DNA from: Oscillospiraceae bacterium
GTDB lineage: Bacteria; Bacillota; Clostridia; Oscillospirales; CAG-272
Direction: 5' to 3'
NCBI GenBank assembly: GCA_015064015.1
Contig: SVTB01000003.1
Location: 1 to 43,229, forward strand
DNA: 43,229 nucleotides
Position numbers and translations under genes: made by a program. The notes below the pieces were generated by a model, which worked only from the letters and a program-made list of their open reading frames with translations, was not told the DNA's origin and did no database searches. Shown here one piece after another: positions 1,829 to 29,693 of the stretch (position 1 is the first letter of the stretch; each line of letters opens with the position of its first letter).

Positions 1829-3592
1829 ATGAAAAAACAACTGATGCTGGGCAACGAAGCCGCGGCGCGGGGGCTTTTTGAGGCGGGCTGCCGTCTCGTG
1901 TCCTCCTATCCCGGCACGCCGTCCACCGAAATAACCGAATTCGCTGCCGAGTACGACGAAGTGTACTGCGAATGGGCACCCAATGAGAAGGTGGCTATGG
2001 AGGTAGCGTTTGGCGCCTCGCTCAAGGGCGCACGCTCGGCCTGCGCCATGAAGCACGTGGGCTTGAACGTCGCCGCAGATCCCCTTTATACCATGTCCTA
2101 TACGGGTGTCAACGCGGGTCTTGTAGTTTGTGTGGCCGATGACCCCGGGATGCACTCTTCTCAAAATGAGCAGGATTCTCGCCATCACGCCATTGCTGCC
2201 AAGGTTCCCATGCTGGAGCCCTCGGATTCTGCCGAGGCGCTGGCCATGATAAAGGCCGCTTTTGATCTGTCGGAGCAGTTTGATACCCCTGTGATCTTCC
2301 GCACTTGTACTCGCATCGCTCATTCCCAGAGCCTTGTGACCCTTTCTGACCGCGCGGAGATCCCCCTGCGCCCCTACGTCAAGGAGCCGCAAAAGTACAT
2401 CATGGCACCTGCCAACGCCATCCGCCGTCATCCCGTGGTAGAAGCAAGAACCCTGGCACTCACCGAGTATGCTGAGACTTGCGCCCTTAACCGAGTGGAG
2501 CTTGCTGCCGATGGCAACACCACCCTGGGCATCATCTGTTCGGGTACTTGCTACCAGTATGTCCGAGAGGTGTTCGGCGATACGGTCAATATCCTCAAGC
2601 TGGGTCTGGTCAATCCCCTTCCTGTGAATCTTATCACGGATTTTGCCGCTAAGGTAGACCGGCTGGTGGTCTTTGAAGAGCTTGATCCGGTTATCGAAAC
2701 TCATTGCCGCAACATTGGCGTGAGTGTAGAAGGAAAGAGCCTGTTCCCTATGGTGGGCGAGTTCTCTCAAAATCTGCTTCGCACCGCTTTGGGTCTGCCT
2801 GTGTCTGAGACGGTGACCGCCGACGAGGCCATTCCCGTTCGTCCTCCTGTCATGTGCGCCGGCTGTCCTCACAGAGGCTTGTTCTACACCCTGTCCAAGC
2901 ACAAGGTGACCGTTATCGGTGATATCGGATGTTATACCTTGGGCATGGCCGCGCCCCTCAACGCCGTTGACTCGGTGCTGTGTATGGGTGCATCTGTGTC
3001 GGGTGTGCACGGTTTCAACAAGATCGGCGGTGCCGAGACCGAGAGCAAGACCGTGGCTGTCATTGGTGACTCTACCTTCATGCACTCCGGTATGACGGGT
3101 CTTGTCAATGTCGCTTACAATGCTTCGAATTCTACTGTTATCATTTTGGACAACTCCATCACGGGTATGACGGGTCATCAGCAGAACCCCACCACGGGCT
3201 ACAGCATCAAAGGAGATCCTGCTACCAAGGTGGATCTGGAAGCCTTTTGCCGCGCCGTGGGCATCGACCGTGTGACGGTTGTTGATCCCTACGATTTGGC
3301 CGCTTGCGAGAAGGTTATCACCGAGGAACTGACCGCTGAGGGCCCGGGTGTCATTATTTCCCGCCGTCCTTGCGTTCTGCTCAAGACCGTCAAGGCCAAG
3401 CCCGCCCTGACCGTGGACAAAGACGCTTGCCGTTCTTGCAAAAAGTGCATGAAGCTGGGCTGTCCCGCCATCCACATGGAAGGCGAAGGCAAGACCGCCA
3501 AGGCTGTTATTGACACCACTCTTTGCGTGGGTTGCGGCGTGTGCGAGCAAATGTGCGCCTTCGGTGCCATTCAGAATCAGGAGGGCAAGTGA
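1829..3592 (+). CDS. iorA: Indolepyruvate ferredoxin oxidoreductase, alpha subunit
   Basis: N-terminal GNEAAARGLFEAGCRLVSSYPGTPSTEI; PPVMCAGCPHRGLFY; TPP region GDIGCYTLG...GDSTFMHSGM; C-terminal [4Fe-4S] motifs CRSCKKCMKLGCP and CVGCGVCEQMC. Confidence 0.95.
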   Translation: MKKQLMLGNEAAARGLFEAGCRLVSSYPGTPSTEITEFAAEYDEVYCEWAPNEKVAMEVAFGASLKGARSACAMKHVGLNVAADPLYTMSYTGVNAGLVVCVADDPGMHSSQNEQDSRHHAIAAKVPMLEPSDSAEALAMIKAAFDLSEQFDTPVIFRTCTRIAHSQSLVTLSDRAEIPLRPYVKEPQKYIMAPANAIRRHPVVEARTLALTEYAETCALNRVELAADGNTTLGIICSGTCYQYVREVFGDTVNILKLGLVNPLPVNLITDFAAKVDRLVVFEELDPVIETHCRNIGVSVEGKSLFPMVGEFSQNLLRTALGLPVSETVTADEAIPVRPPVMCAGCPHRGLFYTLSKHKVTVIGDIGCYTLGMAAPLNAVDSVLCMGASVSGVHGFNKIGGAETESKTVAVIGDSTFMHSGMTGLVNVAYNASNSTVIILDNSITGMTGHQQNPTTGYSIKGDPATKVDLEAFCRAVGIDRVTVVDPYDLAACEKVITEELTAEGPGVIISRRPCVLLKTVKAKPALTVDKDACRSCKKCMKLGCPAIHMEGEGKTAKAVIDTTLCVGCGVCEQMCAFGAIQNQEGK

Positions 3593-3593
3593 T

Positions 3594-4166
3594 ATGGAAA
3601 CCAAGAATATCATGATCGTGGGCGTGGGTGGACAAGGCTCACTCCTGGCCTCCAAGCTGCTGGGTCACCTGCTTTGCGAGGAAGGCTATGACGTAAAAGT
3701 TTCCGAGGTGCATGGCATGAGCCAGCGCGGCGGTAGTGTGGTGACATATGTTCGCTACGGCGATTGCGTGGCATCTCCTATCATTGACAAGGGCGAGGCG
3801 GATTTTATTGTCTCTTTTGAAAAGCTGGAGGCCGCTCGTTGGGTATCTTACCTGAAAAACGGAGGCCGTATGGTGGTCAACACCCGCGAGACTGATCCCA
3901 TGCCTGTTATCACGGGTGCAGCGAAATATCCCCACGAGGTGCTGGAAGGGCTTAAAGCCAAGGGCATTATCATGGATGACATGGATGCTTTGGCGCTGGC
4001 CGAGGAAGCCGGCTCCGCCAAGGCTGTGAATATTGTTTTGATGGGAAGATTATCCTGCTATTTCCCCGAGATTTCCGAAGAAAAGTGGCTCTCCGCCATT
4101 GAGGCCTGCGTTAAGCCCAAGTTCGTGGAATTGAACAAAAAGGCTTTCGCTTTGGGTCGTGGTTGA
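3594..4166 (+). CDS. iorB: Indolepyruvate ferredoxin oxidoreductase, beta subunit
   Basis: METKNIMIVGVGGQGSLLASKLLGHLL...VSEVHGMSQRGGSVVTYVRYG, pyruvate-ferredoxin oxidoreductase gamma-domain signature; starts 1 nt after the iorA stop. Confidence 0.94.
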   Translation: METKNIMIVGVGGQGSLLASKLLGHLLCEEGYDVKVSEVHGMSQRGGSVVTYVRYGDCVASPIIDKGEADFIVSFEKLEAARWVSYLKNGGRMVVNTRETDPMPVITGAAKYPHEVLEGLKAKGIIMDDMDALALAEEAGSAKAVNIVLMGRLSCYFPEISEEKWLSAIEACVKPKFVELNKKAFALGRG

Positions 4167-4230
4167 TAGGTAAGAATTTATTTGCTTGCATATACTATCC
4201 TTATCACGCATATACCAAGGAGTTTTCGAT

Positions 4231-5076
4231 ATGAAAAATCTCGCTTACTACAACGGCAAAATTGCCCCTGTTGAAGAAATGATGGTTCCTTTCAACGACC
4301 GTGTTCACTTCTTCGGCGATGGCATCTACGACGTAACCTACACCCGAAACTACAAGCCGTTCGCCCTGTCTGAGCACTTGGACCGTCTTTACGGCTGTGC
4401 CCATAAGCTGGACATTAAGATTCCTCACTCCAAGGAGGAGTTGACGCGCATCCTCACGGATCTCTTCCCTCGTCTGGACACGGGCGAGCAGTTTGTTTAT
4501 CTTCAAGTGACAAGAGGCACCCAGGACAGAAACCACACTTATCCCGAGGATCAGGTGGGCAATCTCTGGATCATGCTTCGTCCCGGCTCCCTCAAGGATG
4601 TCCGTATGGAGGTGAAGGCCATCACCACCGAGGACACCCGCTTCTTCCATTGTGATATCAAAACGCTCAATCTCCTTCCTGCCGTCATGTATTCTCAGAT
4701 GGCTGAGCGCGCAGGGGTGTACGAAACCATCCTTTATCGCAAGCCCGATCGCGTGACCGAGTGTGCTCACGCTAACGTGCATATCATCAATCAGCGCGGT
4801 GCGTTCCAAACGGCCCCCTTGGACAATCTGATTTTGCCCGGTATTGCTCGCGCGCATTTGATCAAGGCCTGCAAGGCTCTGGGCTATCCCGTGGAGGAAA
4901 CCCCCTTCACCTTGGATGAGCTGATGAATGCAAAAGAGGTCATCATCTCTTCTTCCAGCGCCATCGGCCTGCGCTGCGTGGAGATCGATGGTAAGCCTGT
5001 TGGCAGAGGTGCCGAGGAAATGCTTTATAACATTCAGGACTGGGTTCTGGATGAATTTATGAAGGAAACCAATTAA
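4231..5076 (+). CDS. Class IV PLP aminotransferase (D-amino-acid / branched-chain aminotransferase family)
   Basis: MKNLAYYNGKIAPVEEMMVPFNDRVHFFGDGIYDVTYT...DIKTLNLLPAVM...ITECAHANVHII-type motif; RBS AAGGAG upstream. Confidence 0.88.
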   Translation: MKNLAYYNGKIAPVEEMMVPFNDRVHFFGDGIYDVTYTRNYKPFALSEHLDRLYGCAHKLDIKIPHSKEELTRILTDLFPRLDTGEQFVYLQVTRGTQDRNHTYPEDQVGNLWIMLRPGSLKDVRMEVKAITTEDTRFFHCDIKTLNLLPAVMYSQMAERAGVYETILYRKPDRVTECAHANVHIINQRGAFQTAPLDNLILPGIARAHLIKACKALGYPVEETPFTLDELMNAKEVIISSSSAIGLRCVEIDGKPVGRGAEEMLYNIQDWVLDEFMKETN

Positions 5077-5119: not shown

Positions 5120-7726
5120 ATGAAAAGAAACACCCGCATTTGGCTGACAGCTACCCTGCTGGCACTTTTCTTGATCGTAGGTCTTGTGGCTTGTACCCAA
5201 GGCCCTGAGGTGCCCGGTACTGATGCCGGCACCGACAAGGAGACTGTTGCCGAAACCGTACCCTCCCATGAAACGGGCGACGCAACCGAAGAGCCCGGTC
5301 AGGAGACAAACGCTCCCGTTGCCGGCACTGAAATGCCTACCGAGGAGCCCACCGAGATACCCACCGAAGCACCCGTTGAAGAAGAAACCGCTTTGGTCGT
5401 TGACTTCAATGCGCTTAACCTTAAATTCCTCAAAGGCTGTTTTAACGGTGCAAACCAGACAAACGTAGCTGTGGAAAGCGATGATGACGGTGAGCAGTAC
5501 GTAGCTCTTTCCACCAGCGTGGCCAACGCTACCGATCCTTTCGTTACCTTTAACCTCCGCAATTTCTTGTCCAGGGCCGACATGGAGGCTATCGAGGCTG
5601 ATGAATTTAATTACATCATTTTGAAGGTGCGTGCAAAGAATTGCTCCACCGGTACCTTTAACCTCTACTACTTTGCGGGCGGTGTCAGCGGTGCGACCCC
5701 CGGTATGGAAGCGTCTGCCGGCTTTGATGTCAGCGAGGAAGGCTGGCAGTATATCCTTTTCGATATGAGAGATAAGCCTTCTTGGACGGGCCAGGTTACC
5801 GGCTTCCGTATGGACTATATGATGACCGCCGTCAATGAGGGAGAGACTCTGCAGATTGCCGAGATCCAGTTCCTCGACTCTGCGGACGCTTACTACAAGC
5901 AGTTCGACGTGGATTGGGATGACAAGGGCTTTGATATTTCCGATGAGGATAAAGCCAAGGCCGAGGAGCTTTTGAACTCCACCCAGAAGCCCACCACGGG
6001 TTACGACAGCTACACCAAGGAGAATGGCGCCAACGAGGATGCCACACTCAAGCTGTGGTTTGACCATATGTATACCCGCGCTCCCCAGAGCGGATTTACC
6101 GTAAAGGAAAACAACATCTCCTACCTGATCCAGATGGCCAAGAACGAGACCGAGGGCTGCCAGTTTATCCTGGCTCCCGATGCCGACGTGACCGGTCTCA
6201 AGGTCTACATTACCGATTTCAAGAACGCCGATGGCGATACCCTCAAGACCGAGCTTCATTGGGGTTATTACTTCAATATTTTGGACCAGATGCTCATTGA
6301 TCCTCTGCCTCCCGTCAGCTATACCCCCGAAGAGGGTATGCTGGATTGGGTGAACGGCGGCAACGGTCGCGGTGAGGCCATCGACAACCTCCAGAAGTAC
6401 AACGGCTTTGACATTAAGGCAGGACAATCTCAGTCCTTTGTCATCAAGGCTACCACCACCGCGGATTCCAAGGCCGGTGAGTATGCGGCTACACTGACCG
6501 TGGTGGATGCCAACGGCAACGAGGTCAAGAAGGCGACCGTCTTTACTTACGTCTGGAACTTTGTGCTGGACGATGCTTCCTCTTGTAAGACCCTCATGGA
6601 TATGAGCGCTTATGAGGTTTACATGACCTATTTTGATTTTGCCGCCGATCTGTCCAACTGGAGAGGCGAGAATCTGGGCGAGGTTTACTATAACTTCCTC
6701 CTGGATTATCGCGTCAACTGCTACAGCCTGCCTTTCGAGAACGAAGACGGCTCCTTCTCCGATTCCCGACTCTTGGAATACCTGAACAATCCTCGCGTCC
6801 AGGCCTTCCAGCCGCTCGGTTGGGCTAAGGAGATCGTGCCTTGGAAGGTAGCCAATGCCTATGCGTTCCTGTCTCAAAAAGAGGAATGGCTGGAGAAGGC
6901 TTACTTCTATCCCGTTGACGAGCCCGGTAGTGTTAGCCGTCTGGACGATATCAACAACTACGGTAAGATGCTGGGAGAAAACTTCCCCGGTTACAAGCTC
7001 ATCGCCCCCATGCACGTCAACTATGCCACCTCTCAGGGCGACTTCTTCTCTTACGTCACAAGCTCCGTCAACGTATGGTGCCCCAAGACCTTCTTCTTCA
7101 ACACCTTTGCCGAGTGGTTGGACAATCAGGATCTCTACTATGGCACCACGCCTCAGCTGGAAGAAAAGCTGGATTCTCTGCGCGACCGTTTCTGGGCCGA
7201 GCAGGAGGGCGGTGACGAGGTTTGGTGGTATGTGACCAGATTCCCCAATGATCCTGAGATCACCCTGATCATCAATACCGAAGCAGTCAACATTCGTACC
7301 CTCTTCTGGCAGCAGAAGCTCTACAATGTGGATGGCTTCCTGTACTATCTCGTCAACCACTGGGGCAACGGTTCTGACCGTTATTGGATCCCCTCTGCCG
7401 ATAAGTGGTATCAAGGTATGGACGCTATGCACGAGATCAACGATGCCTACCCCTACGAAGTGTACGGTAATGGTATCCTCATCTACAGCGGTGTGTACTT
7501 TGCACAGACCGATCCCGTGGCTAGCCTCCGCTTGGAGTCCGTTCGTGACGGTATCGAGGACTTCGAGTACTTGACCATGCTGGAGGAGATCTACGGCAAG
7601 GACGTAGTAGATGCCATCATTACCAAGTGGACCACCGGCCTTGGTGAATACAACACCGATGCCGATGCCTTCCGTGAGCTCCGTGCTCAAGTAGGTGCTC
7701 TGCTGGAAAAGGCTTCCCAGAACTGA
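5120..7726 (+). CDS. Secreted lipoprotein with DUF4091 / GH123-like glycoside hydrolase domain
   Basis: Lipobox LVAC; T/E/P-rich linker; YFYPVDEPGS, WWYVTRFPNDPEITLIINTEAVNIRTLFWQQKLYNVDGFLYYLVNHWG, SLRLESVRDGIEDFEYLTMLEE resemble DUF4091/GH123. Confidence 0.75.
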   Translation: MKRNTRIWLTATLLALFLIVGLVACTQGPEVPGTDAGTDKETVAETVPSHETGDATEEPGQETNAPVAGTEMPTEEPTEIPTEAPVEEETALVVDFNALNLKFLKGCFNGANQTNVAVESDDDGEQYVALSTSVANATDPFVTFNLRNFLSRADMEAIEADEFNYIILKVRAKNCSTGTFNLYYFAGGVSGATPGMEASAGFDVSEEGWQYILFDMRDKPSWTGQVTGFRMDYMMTAVNEGETLQIAEIQFLDSADAYYKQFDVDWDDKGFDISDEDKAKAEELLNSTQKPTTGYDSYTKENGANEDATLKLWFDHMYTRAPQSGFTVKENNISYLIQMAKNETEGCQFILAPDADVTGLKVYITDFKNADGDTLKTELHWGYYFNILDQMLIDPLPPVSYTPEEGMLDWVNGGNGRGEAIDNLQKYNGFDIKAGQSQSFVIKATTTADSKAGEYAATLTVVDANGNEVKKATVFTYVWNFVLDDASSCKTLMDMSAYEVYMTYFDFAADLSNWRGENLGEVYYNFLLDYRVNCYSLPFENEDGSFSDSRLLEYLNNPRVQAFQPLGWAKEIVPWKVANAYAFLSQKEEWLEKAYFYPVDEPGSVSRLDDINNYGKMLGENFPGYKLIAPMHVNYATSQGDFFSYVTSSVNVWCPKTFFFNTFAEWLDNQDLYYGTTPQLEEKLDSLRDRFWAEQEGGDEVWWYVTRFPNDPEITLIINTEAVNIRTLFWQQKLYNVDGFLYYLVNHWGNGSDRYWIPSADKWYQGMDAMHEINDAYPYEVYGNGILIYSGVYFAQTDPVASLRLESVRDGIEDFEYLTMLEEIYGKDVVDAIITKWTTGLGEYNTDADAFRELRAQVGALLEKASQN

Positions 7727-25818: not shown

Positions 25819-25847
25819 TTGACAAATTGAAAAAATGGGTGTATAAT
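25819..25847 (+). promoter_or_regulatory. Sigma-A promoter of the T-box/symporter transcript
   Basis: TTGACA (25819-25824), 17-nt spacer, TATAAT (25842-25847). Confidence 0.85.
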
Positions 25848-25865: not shown

Positions 25866-26183
25866 ACTCGGAATCAAAAGCGTTGATCGGGAAGAAGTAT
25901 TCGGATACTGCACCTACAGAGAGCCGTCGGTTGGTGCGAGACGGTGGAGAGGTTCGAAGAAATACATCCCGGGAGCTACTTTGCTGAACGCCCCTGTCTG
26001 CAGCGGAGGCCAAGGTATCGTCGGGTGCGCCCGTTATCGCGCAGAGGCATAACCCTGCGGTCATTTCCGAAGGACGTGCTTCACGAGGTTTCGACTGTAA
26101 GGCCGAAATAAACAAGAGGTGGTACCGCGGTATATCCGCCCTCTTCCCTTATTTTTAGACAGGGGAGCGAGGGTGGTTTTTTT
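25866..26183 (+). promoter_or_regulatory. T-box leader (tRNA-sensing riboswitch), predicted Tyr UAC specifier
   Basis: Stem I with GGGAAGAAGTA and AGAGAGCCG..GGTTGGTGCGA; specifier region GAAGAAATACATCCCGGGAGC (UAC at 25963-25965); T-box AAGAGGTGGTACCGCGG (26114-26130); terminator CCGCCCTC...GAGGGTGG + TTTTTTT (26136-26183). Confidence 0.93.
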
Positions 26184-26238
26184 ATTGCCCGAGTCCCCGA
26201 CATTTCAGCCTGCGGGCAAGTTTTTTTGGAGGTATGCT

Positions 26239-27870
26239 ATGCTTGTCAAAATTTTCCTGATCGTTTTGTTTTTTGCCGTCACCCTTCTTGTCGGCGTGCT
26301 GTCCAACCGCTCGACCAAGGGCGTGGACGGATTTGTGCTGGGCGGCCGCTCGGTTGGCCCTTGGCTCACAGCCTTCTCTTTTGGCACGTCCTACTTCTCG
26401 GCGGTCATCTTCATCGGTTACGCGGGGAGATTCGGCTGGAACTTCGGCCTGGCCTCTACGTGGATCGGTCTCGGCAACGCTTTCATCGGATCTCTCATGG
26501 CTTGGGTGATCCTTGGCCGCCGCACCCGCGTCATGACCCAGCATTTGGGTAGCCGCACCATGCCCGATTTCTTCGGCCTCCGTTTCAATTCTAAGGCTTT
26601 GCGCTTGGTGGCCGCCGTTATCGTTTTCGTGTTCCTCATTCCGTACACAGCATCCCTGTTCAACGGCCTCTCTTGGCTTTTCTCTGCCTCTTTTGCGGGC
26701 GTGCCCTACTGGGGTTGGGTTATCATCATGGCGGTTCTCACGGGCATTTACGTTATCATTGGCGGCTACATGGGCTCCGCTATGAATAACTTCATCCAAG
26801 GTATTATCATGCTGGTGGGCATCGTGGCGGTGATCGGTGCCGTTCTGGGTGCCAACGGCGGTCTCAGCGAGGCCATTGCTAAACTGTCCGAGGGTTCCAC
26901 CGTTACGGCTGACGGCACCACCTTCAACGGTGCTTACACCTCCTTCTTAGGCCCTCAACCCCTCCAGCTTCTGGGCGTGGTCATTCTGACCTCCCTGGGT
27001 ACCTGGGGCCTGCCCCAGATGGTGGGTAAGTTCTACGCCATCAAGGATGAGGGTGCCATTCACAAGGGAACCGTTATCTCCACGGTATTCGCCCTCATCG
27101 TGGCGGGTGGTTGCTACTTCCTCGGCGGCTTTGGCCGTCTGTATGCCGACAGCGTGACCATGAACGCCGCAGGCAATGCTCCCGCATCCTTTGACACCAT
27201 CATTCCTGCCATGCTGGGTGCTATCGAGGACGGCTTGGGCAACGGCGGCGCATGGCTCATCGGTCTTGTGCTGATTTTGGTGTTGGCGGCCTCCATGTCT
27301 ACTCTGTCGTCTTTGGCCATGACCTCGGCCTCTACCATTACCCTTGATCTTATCGCGCCCCTCTCCAAAAAGCAAAAAAGCGAGAAGTCCAGTATGCTCA
27401 TCATGCGTGTCTTGCTGGCTATCTCTATTGTCATTGCCGCCGCTATCGCCATTCTGGTGGTAGGTAATGCTGAATTGGCTAAGAAGCTCTACATCTCTGA
27501 CCTCATGGGTATCTCCTGGGGCACTCTGGCGGGCTGCTTCCTGGCTCCCTTCCTGTACGGTCTGTTCTGGAAGAAGGTCACCAAGGCCGCTGTATGGGTG
27601 TCCTTCGCCACGGGTCTTGGCATTACCCTGACACAGTTCATCCTCAACGCCGTCCTTAAGATCACCTTTGAAAACCCCGTCATGGCTTACTTCTGCGGCT
27701 CGTCCATCAACGCGGGTATGCTGGCCATGCTGGTGGGCCTGGTCCTCGTTCCCGTGGTCAGCCTGCTGACGCAGAAGAGCGCTCCTTCGGGCGTGAACGA
27801 AATGTTTGCCTGCTATGACAAGGAAGTCACCGTGTCGGTGATGAGCTCTTTGGAGGAAGGCAAAAAGTAA
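26239..27870 (+). CDS. Sodium:solute symporter (SSS family)
   Basis: MLVKIFLIVLFFAVTLLVGVLSNRSTKGVDGFVLGGRSVGPWLTAFSFGTSYFSAVIFIGYAGRFGWNFG; polytopic; RBS TGGAGG. The ORF-track start at 26119 lies within the T-box. Confidence 0.9.
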   Translation: MLVKIFLIVLFFAVTLLVGVLSNRSTKGVDGFVLGGRSVGPWLTAFSFGTSYFSAVIFIGYAGRFGWNFGLASTWIGLGNAFIGSLMAWVILGRRTRVMTQHLGSRTMPDFFGLRFNSKALRLVAAVIVFVFLIPYTASLFNGLSWLFSASFAGVPYWGWVIIMAVLTGIYVIIGGYMGSAMNNFIQGIIMLVGIVAVIGAVLGANGGLSEAIAKLSEGSTVTADGTTFNGAYTSFLGPQPLQLLGVVILTSLGTWGLPQMVGKFYAIKDEGAIHKGTVISTVFALIVAGGCYFLGGFGRLYADSVTMNAAGNAPASFDTIIPAMLGAIEDGLGNGGAWLIGLVLILVLAASMSTLSSLAMTSASTITLDLIAPLSKKQKSEKSSMLIMRVLLAISIVIAAAIAILVVGNAELAKKLYISDLMGISWGTLAGCFLAPFLYGLFWKKVTKAAVWVSFATGLGITLTQFILNAVLKITFENPVMAYFCGSSINAGMLAMLVGLVLVPVVSLLTQKSAPSGVNEMFACYDKEVTVSVMSSLEEGKK

Positions 27871-27888: not shown

Positions 27889-27922
27889 GCGCACACCTGC
27901 CCGAGGGCGGGTGTGCGCTTTT
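27889..27922. terminator. Intrinsic (bidirectional-looking) terminator
   Basis: GCGCACACCTGCCCGAGGGCGGGTGTGCGC followed by TTTTG; convergent genes either side. Confidence 0.8.
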
Positions 27923-27929
27923 GTGCTCG

Positions 27930-29693
27930 TCAGGGCATATCTTCGGAATCTTCCTGCGCGAAGTAGCAGTGCGCACCTGCGGGGAACCGCTGGTCGGAGC
28001 TTTCCTCAAAAATGATCCATAGACGCTCCTGCCCGAACTCAAGGTGTCCTTTGACCCCCGCTCCCTCAAAGACCCACACGCCGTCCCGGTTGCTTGCGGT
28101 GAGCTTCAACGAGGATTCGGTGGTATCGTCCAAGAGAGAATTATCTCCGTCGGGGTCGGGATAAAGGAAAGTGAAGGCGTATCTGACGTTCATGTCCATC
28201 CGGGTGTCCGTTGCGTTGTCGAATGTCACGTAGGTGTTGCTATACGCCCAGTCTTTGCCCGAAGTCTCTTCCAAATTGGCATATTTGTGCCACGTGATAT
28301 CGACGGCAGCCTTGCGGAGATCCTCCTTCGGCTCGACCAAAGGGGTGTAGGTCAGGCTTGATACGTTTCTGGTATACTCGTTGGGTGAGAACGGTTCGGA
28401 ATAGCAACAATATTCATTATGATAGAGCGTCAGGGAATCCTCAAAGGAGATGATCTCCGTCTTACCGTCCCTCGTCAGATAGCGGTTGCCGTTCTCGGCC
28501 GCGAGAATGGAGTAGACAAGACGGTAATCCCCGTCTTTCGTAAGCTCATACAGGCTGTATTCCAACTCGTAATAATCCGTGCGGTCCACGTGGATCAGCC
28601 CTTTCTCGTCCAGCCAGCAGCTTTTCATGTCGAAGAAGGCATCCAAAAGGACGGGCTTACCCTTTCTTTGGGTAAAGATGGCCTTGATGGTGTAGTCCTC
28701 GTTCATGATGACCAGCTCGTCCTGTCCGTCGCCGTTGAGGTCGATCTCGTCGTAGCCCTCGTGGGAGGCATCCCGATAGGCGGTGTAAAGAAGTTGGGTA
28801 TAATATTCAAATGAAACGTCGTTCGGGAAGGTAAAGAGATCGTCGTATTCTCCCTGAAGCCATTTGGCGTGATCAAATTTCTCCAGACAGGTGGAGATGG
28901 CCTTGTAGGTCTCACGGATGGCGGCGTAGCTTGAAAAATCAGCCACGGGAAGATTCTCATCTAAAGTCTTGTCAACCAATGGGAGGTGGATGTAGGGCGT
29001 CAGCAATTTGAAGGTTCGACCGTAATCCGTGGTAGAGATGATCCGACCGTATTCTCGATGCAGTTCGTCGTGGGTCTCCTTGTCAATGGTCGTCCGCTCT
29101 CCGTCTTTGATTTGGAAATATTCAAGAACTTCTTTTTTATCCATGTCATAGAGACCACCGTAAATGGAGCTGTAGGCCATTTTGTCTCCGTCCACGCGGC
29201 CGATGTAAACGATACTTTCCTCGATGTTGCCTTCGACGGTTGAACGCTCGATAAAGAAGCGGCGATCCGTGCCAAACAGGAAGGCCCCGCCTTTTCCGTA
29301 ATTGGCCTCCAGCAGGAGGGGCTTCTTGTCCGAAATGGTGAAGATGGCTTTAACGCCTGCATGTTTGGACAGTAGGATCAGCTCGGGGGTGCCGTTGCCG
29401 TCCATGTCCTTGTAGCCGTAGCCCAGGTTTTTTGCAACTTCGGCATCCTTGCAGGCATCTACGATGCCGTGGAGGGCGGTGGCAATGGCGGCCTCCCGCT
29501 CGTCCATGCCCTCGGTATCGGGCGCGGGCAATTCCTCGCCGTTTTGCTTGGCGGTCAGGAGGGCTGTGTACTCGGCGATGATGCCGTCGTACAGAGATTT
29601 TTGCTCCTCGTAGGATGTTTCGGTCTCTTGGGTGCAAGCCGCCGCTGTCAGGAGCAGACAAAGGCAGAGCAGGATGGTCAAGAATTGTTTCAT
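27930..29693 (-). CDS. Uncharacterised lipoprotein with duplicated DxDGxxE repeats
   Basis: Lipobox MKQFLTILLCLCLLLTAAAC; repeats KDMDGNGTPELILLSKHAGVKAIFT and IDLNGDGQDELVIMNEDYTIKAIFT. Confidence 0.75.
   Translation of the reverse strand: MKQFLTILLCLCLLLTAAACTQETETSYEEQKSLYDGIIAEYTALLTAKQNGEELPAPDTEGMDEREAAIATALHGIVDACKDAEVAKNLGYGYKDMDGNGTPELILLSKHAGVKAIFTISDKKPLLLEANYGKGGAFLFGTDRRFFIERSTVEGNIEESIVYIGRVDGDKMAYSSIYGGLYDMDKKEVLEYFQIKDGERTTIDKETHDELHREYGRIISTTDYGRTFKLLTPYIHLPLVDKTLDENLPVADFSSYAAIRETYKAISTCLEKFDHAKWLQGEYDDLFTFPNDVSFEYYTQLLYTAYRDASHEGYDEIDLNGDGQDELVIMNEDYTIKAIFTQRKGKPVLLDAFFDMKSCWLDEKGLIHVDRTDYYELEYSLYELTKDGDYRLVYSILAAENGNRYLTRDGKTEIISFEDSLTLYHNEYCCYSEPFSPNEYTRNVSSLTYTPLVEPKEDLRKAAVDITWHKYANLEETSGKDWAYSNTYVTFDNATDTRMDMNVRYAFTFLYPDPDGDNSLLDDTTESSLKLTASNRDGVWVFEGAGVKGHLEFGQERLWIIFEESSDQRFPAGAHCYFAQEDSEDMP

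Follow-up and report, generated by a model that had tools for sequence, protein, structure and literature searches.

The window analysed here, a stretch of 43,229 nucleotides from contig SVTB01000003.1 of Oscillospiraceae bacterium, contains an SSS-family sodium:solute symporter gene placed under a T-box leader of tRNA-Tyr specificity. This symporter most likely imports 4-hydroxyphenylacetate, which would be reductively carboxylated on the way to tyrosine; phenylacetate is probably converted to phenylalanine in parallel. The cargo, its coupling to sodium ions, the substrates of the associated ligases and the direction of flux are predictions, and those for the symporter and for the AMP-binding CoA ligase referred to below as LIG are drawn only from regulation and gene neighbourhood. 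The leader, its specifier codon, the genes that it and related leaders precede, the linkage of these genes, and the division of two CoA ligases between UAC and UUC leaders are observed directly.

All elements of the leader lie on the forward strand. A sigma-70 promoter (TTGACA-17-TATAAT, 25819-25847), agreeing with the consensus at 12 of 12 bases, is followed by a T-box leader RNA at 25874-26146, which matches the Rfam model RF00230 over its whole length (model positions 1-219 of 219, E = 6.8e-24) with 111.2 bits against a gathering score of 93. The lower helix of Stem I, below the specifier loop, is formed by CGGGA (25888-25892) and UCCCG (25967-25971), and the AGUA loop-E motif of Stem I occupies 25896-25899, as seen in both the sequence and the Rfam alignment. 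Folded alone, Stem I gave a z value of -1.2, which is not significant, so the evidence for Stem I comes from the covariance model. The antiterminator bulge UGGU (26120-26123) lies within GGUGGUACCGCGG (26118-26130) and is complementary to the ACCA end, including A73, of uncharged tRNA-Tyr. The alternative structure is an intrinsic terminator (26136-26183; -29.3 kcal/mol, z -2.46), comprising a hairpin at 26136-26176, which shares bases with the antiterminator's 3' half, and the run UUUUUUU at 26177-26183. The ribosome-binding site GGAGG (26228-26232) precedes the symporter gene. The earlier note, made from the sequence alone, had described a complete T-box leader in front of a symporter and named RF00230 as the model to check it against; the full-length match, above the gathering score and accompanied by promoter and terminator, bears this description out. 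The leader thus combines a score above the gathering threshold, a specifier with matching host tRNA and discriminator base, and a terminator/antiterminator pair before the gene, and it is predicted to act as a terminator/antiterminator switch, although antitermination in this organism is judged from sequence.

The specifier codon could be assigned from the geometry of Stem I. The CGGGA/UCCCG helix sets the 3' end of the specifier bulge at A25966, and bulge positions 2-4 from this end are U25963, A25964 and C25965, which gives UAC (Tyr) as the specifier; in the rule used by TBDB this is the '+0' frame (PMC7778990). The same register yields the cognate codon in other T-boxes of this genome, namely GUC for valS, CUC for leuS, UUC for pheS, AUC for ilvA and UGG for trpB. 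A UGG (Trp) T-box was also observed at positions 215-463 of contig C180 (L005), with its target gene cut off at the contig end.

Neighbouring frames do exist at this site, and the helix register taken by itself is ambiguous in two homologous leaders (L012 and L036), so that a specifier of ACA (Thr) or AUA (Ile), with the leader answering a different tRNA, had to be considered; it appears very improbable. The in-genome calibration agrees with the UAC register, and leaders of paaK genes give UUC in the same register. The discriminator base separates the tyrosine and threonine readings. The tRNA-Tyr gene of this genome is cut by the end of contig C176, and the tRNA-Tyr genes of four congeners carry A73, while three tRNA-Thr genes of this genome (GGU, UGU and CGU) carry U73. 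Since the UGGU bulge fits A73 but not U73, the ACA frame is opposed, and together with the calibration this led to its rejection. The AUA frame was rejected on the calibration and on its rare usage, AUA accounting for about 1% of isoleucine specifiers in TBDB (PMC7778990). Rfam alignment and helix register, the calibration T-boxes, the UGGU/A73 match and the leaders of homologues therefore agree on UAC at 25963-25965, as the earlier note had read it while naming AUA and ACA as the triplets that would overturn its reading, and the UAC specifier together with the UGGU bulge identifies tRNA-Tyr as the predicted effector.

The UAC leader recurs upstream of symporter homologues. Among 106 homologue loci with at least 250 bases upstream of the symporter, 23 have a T-box directly upstream (before removal of duplicates), and in all 23 the specifier aligns as UAC, with flanks and helices diverged. 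After duplicates were removed, UAC was machine-read in 20 of 21 leaders; in the remaining one (L036, GAAUUACAC), where the helix register is ambiguous, UAC is obtained by alignment. Thirteen sampled homologue leaders rescored with Rfam reached 79-116 bits. On the symporter tree, with leaders of ligase-symporter operons included, the T-box appears or disappears on at least 10 occasions, gains and losses being indistinguishable, which indicates that UAC is not merely a feature of one inherited leader. Many symporter homologues have neither an adjoining T-box nor adjoining pathway genes.

The gene controlled by the leader (26239-27870, forward strand, ATG start) encodes a protein matching PF00474 with 181.9 bits against a gathering score of 22.8 (E = 2.5e-53), confirming that the T-box target is an SSS symporter; from the neighbours of its homologues it is a predicted importer of 4-hydroxyphenylacetate or of arylacetates. 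It reached no NCBIfam equivalog cut-off, the nearest models being PutP (164.5 bits against 515.5) and PanF (131 against 328), which inform nothing about an aryl substrate. Identities as PutP, PanF, MctC and ActP were rejected, all being below the curated cut-offs. Solved structures compared with the symporter were distant relatives of the SGLT/vSGLT/SiaT type, which do not inform the substrate. A terminator-like hairpin follows the gene at 27889-27918 (forward strand). Beyond it, a reverse-strand open reading frame of 587 amino acids (27930-29693) has no Pfam match above cut-off and a weak match to FG-GAP.

What the symporter carries is best approached through the genes that accompany its homologues. 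The most frequent neighbours are LIG (26 loci), iorA (24), paaK (24), iorB (18) and a gene for an ACT-domain protein (9). LIG usually lies directly upstream of the symporter homologue. The products of iorA and iorB at these loci exceed their NCBIfam equivalog cut-offs, and the PaaK-like neighbours have TIGR02155 as best model, below its cut-off. In two loci (L049 and L060) a UAC T-box heads an operon of LIG, symporter, iorA, iorB and paaK; the order symporter-LIG-iorAB is found in L087, and symporter-iorA in L014 and L015. Most of the genomes compared are metagenome-assembled. The same company of ligase, iorAB and paaK persists in lineages without the T-box. In L099 (Lachnoclostridium phytofermentans) and L105 (Lactonifactor longoviformis), named and apparently cultured strains of Lachnospiraceae type, the symporter stands with iorA and paaK and no T-box is present. 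Across 196 related genomes, iorA is present in 97 of 101 with the symporter and in 28 of 95 without it (p = 1.5e-24), and LIG in 74 of 101 and 18 of 95, respectively (p = 9e-15), these p-values being inflated by shared ancestry, as the genomes are not independent draws. The adjacency in operons is independent of these p-values.

These associations bear on the possibility that the cargo consists of L-tyrosine or of aromatic amino acids, with uptake raised at tyrosine shortage and a separate aryl-acid route operating beside it. The UAC specifier is compatible with such a function, PutP is the highest-scoring NCBIfam equivalog model, and transporters under T-box control usually carry the sensed amino acid, tyrosine T-boxes being found on NhaC and NSS transporters (PMC2494555). 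However, a ligase that activates acids would be needless for an amino-acid importer, and homologue operons join the symporter to CoA ligases and iorAB, also where the T-box is lacking and where paaK is the neighbour, in addition to the presence of iorA in nearly all genomes with the symporter. Import of tyrosine is accordingly regarded as unlikely, though it is the most serious of the alternatives. The earlier note had taken the T-box as showing that the cargo is tyrosine or an aromatic relative: the aromatic relative is retained, and tyrosine itself is disfavoured by the homologue operons, which contain iorAB and CoA ligases of the arylacetate type, and by the placement of LIG under UAC and of paaK under UUC leaders, these pathway neighbours pointing to 4-hydroxyphenylacetate.

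The genes for the proposed route from 4-hydroxyphenylacetate are scattered in the present genome. IorAB and an AMP-forming CoA ligase of predicted arylacetate type occur together in it, and they are linked to the symporter in operons of relatives. The window contains, on the forward strand about 22 kb upstream of the symporter, iorA (1829-3592; above the TIGR03336 equivalog cut-off), encoding the alpha subunit of indolepyruvate:ferredoxin oxidoreductase, the proposed carboxylating enzyme, and iorB for the beta subunit (3594-4166; above the NF005325 cut-off). Directly 3' of iorB is a gene for a class-IV-type aminotransferase of the D-amino-acid transaminase/BCAT type (4186-5076, forward; TIGR01121, E = 3.2e-66, below cut-off), an order shared by the congener G160, and this enzyme could aminate the arylpyruvate. 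No T-box was found before iorAB in this part of the window (1829-5076), and the symporter adjoins neither LIG nor iorAB here. LIG (C45:767-2407) is located on contig C45 under the second UAC T-box of the genome, at C45:767-2718 (L003/L159/L173), where the T-box is followed by the AMP-binding CoA ligase gene and then by a glyS-like gene. The end of contig C138 (3-644) carries an additional ligase fragment that is 89% identical, and paaK is split into two pieces that both lie at the ends of contigs, in an assembly that is 75% complete. Elsewhere in the window, an open reading frame of 868 amino acids (5120-7723, forward) has no NCBIfam match above cut-off, and a tRNA-Gln (CUG) gene lies at the window edge (15-87, reverse), with a near-identical tRNA-Gln (CUG) on contig C23.

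A need created by tyrosine auxotrophy was considered as the reason for having the symporter and was rejected, as the absence of tyrA showed no association with the symporter (p = 0.8; 196 related genomes). Most genomes, this one among them, do have tyrA, and given both observations the aryl-acid route would be at most a salvage route beside normal synthesis.

The division of leaders between the two ligases provides a further line of evidence. Among non-redundant leaders, all 23 on LIG carry UAC, while UUC (Phe) is found in all 11 of the other group, which consists of ten paaK leaders and one leader of an iorA-iorB-paaK operon. The machine tally of UAC against other codons was 43 to 1 for LIG and symporter leaders and 0 to 11 for paaK or iorAB-paaK leaders (Fisher p = 1e-10, likewise inflated by relatedness of the genomes). 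This pattern-based tally gave AUC for L036 and L238, for which the raw sequences have UAC (by alignment) and UUC, respectively. All leaders scanned with Rfam matched RF00230, among them nine on paaK and fourteen on LIG. The split can also be seen within single genomes: in G059 the symporter and LIG have UAC leaders and paaK-iorAB a UUC leader, and in the congener G002 the symporter leader reads UAC and that of iorA-iorB-paaK reads UUC. Two other arrangements were observed near these genes. In L225 (3919-4158), L240 (728-970) and L244 (3395-3644) a second T-box with the core AGUGGUACCGCG lies near paaK, and its specifier looks like AUC (Ile). In L207 (G156:C8) a UUC (Phe) T-box at about 390-580 lies some 2.5 kb upstream of a symporter-LIG-iorA-iorB-paaK cluster.

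T-boxes activate expression in response to uncharged cognate tRNA, that is, at shortage of the amino acid, and such control is expected for genes of amino-acid synthesis or import and not for genes of breakdown. Under the proposed mechanism, tyrosine shortage would leave tRNA-Tyr uncharged; its anticodon would then be bound by the UAC specifier and its ACCA end by the UGGU bulge, which would keep the terminator from forming and let the symporter be made. The symporter would then bring in 4-hydroxyphenylacetate, or arylacetates more broadly, together with sodium ions. LIG, encoded elsewhere in the genome behind its own UAC T-box, would activate 4-hydroxyphenylacetate to its CoA form, IorAB working reductively would carboxylate this to 4-hydroxyphenylpyruvate, and an aminotransferase would yield tyrosine. 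In relatives, PaaK and IorAB under UUC T-boxes would convert phenylacetate to phenylalanine.

The opposite direction, in which the cluster is oxidative and ferments tyrosine to 4-hydroxyphenylacetate while the symporter imports tyrosine or exports the acid, draws on the role of IOR-type enzymes in amino-acid fermentation of other anaerobes and on the reversibility of the steps (PMC13285125). A leader that is on at amino-acid shortage has the wrong sign for catabolism, however, and separate tyrosine and phenylalanine leaders on two ligases fit the synthesis of each amino acid. The ligases are AMP-forming and lack the kinase/phosphotransferase or ADP-forming ligase through which ATP would be gained, and AMP-forming ligases favour acyl-CoA synthesis according to a 2026 study of tyrosine fermentation and p-cresol (PMC13285125). 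The oxidative direction is therefore considered improbable. The expected response to tyrosine shortage and the AMP-forming type of the ligases, taken together, make import of 4-hydroxyphenylacetate for tyrosine synthesis the likeliest function.

Each component of this system has known counterparts. The leader shares with the tyrS-type T-boxes (RF00230) of Bacillota a Stem I with a UAC specifier, a UGGN bulge, a terminator/antiterminator pair and the predicted transcriptional control by uncharged tRNA-Tyr. It precedes an SSS symporter instead of tyrS, however, and the targets in relatives include a CoA ligase with iorAB. PaaL, the phenylacetate permease of Pseudomonas putida, is itself an SSS-family protein. 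It takes up its substrate upstream of phenylacetate-CoA ligase (PMC3224230), and uptake of an arylacetate ahead of a CoA ligase is common to both systems, although PaaL serves aerobic catabolism under sigma-54 control. The transporters with tyrosine T-boxes described by Wels et al. in 2008, of the NhaC and NSS families, are likewise membrane transporters whose cargo was predicted from the specifier; SSS is absent from the table of that paper, and the cargo predicted here is a precursor acid instead of the amino acid (PMC2494555).

The aryl-acid route through IOR is known from methanogens, and passages of PMC4162585 and PMC3462420 that cite work on Methanococcus maripaludis describe aryl acids as feeding aromatic amino-acid synthesis through IOR. 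For Bacteroides, a ligase encoded beside IOR was assayed as an arylacetate-CoA ligase and a biosynthetic role was suggested (PMC13285125). A predicted arylacetate-CoA ligase, IorAB and the proposed direction towards the arylpyruvate are shared with these systems; in the gut Clostridia, T-boxes additionally separate tyrosine (LIG and symporter) from phenylalanine (paaK and iorAB), and a candidate importer is present. A search of the open-licence literature found no SSS protein under a tyrosine T-box, no T-boxes on iorA or paaK and no report of a tyrosine/phenylalanine division between two ligases, which is weak evidence, with subscription papers outside its scope. Each of the three elements, T-box, SSS symporter and aryl-acid route, is known, and the joining of T-boxes with the aryl-acid route was not found reported in that literature.

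Overall, there is reasonable ground to think that T-boxes of gut Clostridia partition aryl-acid salvage by amino acid, with tRNA-Tyr acting on LIG, a ligase hitherto without an assigned role, and the SSS importer (4-hydroxyphenylacetate to tyrosine), and with tRNA-Phe governing the conversion of phenylacetate to phenylalanine through paaK and iorAB, and that arylacetates released by amino-acid-fermenting neighbours are recaptured in this way. If so, T-boxes would be a separate line of evidence on which way the IorAB-ligase clusters of gut anaerobes run, a question left open for Bacteroides (PMC13285125), and would distinguish the substrates of two CoA ligases and an importer that lie beyond the resolution of homology. 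Cross-feeding would also be predicted, in which 4-hydroxyphenylacetate, the precursor of p-cresol, is returned to tyrosine by other gut bacteria, and the cargo of a transporter under T-box control need not be the sensed amino acid itself.
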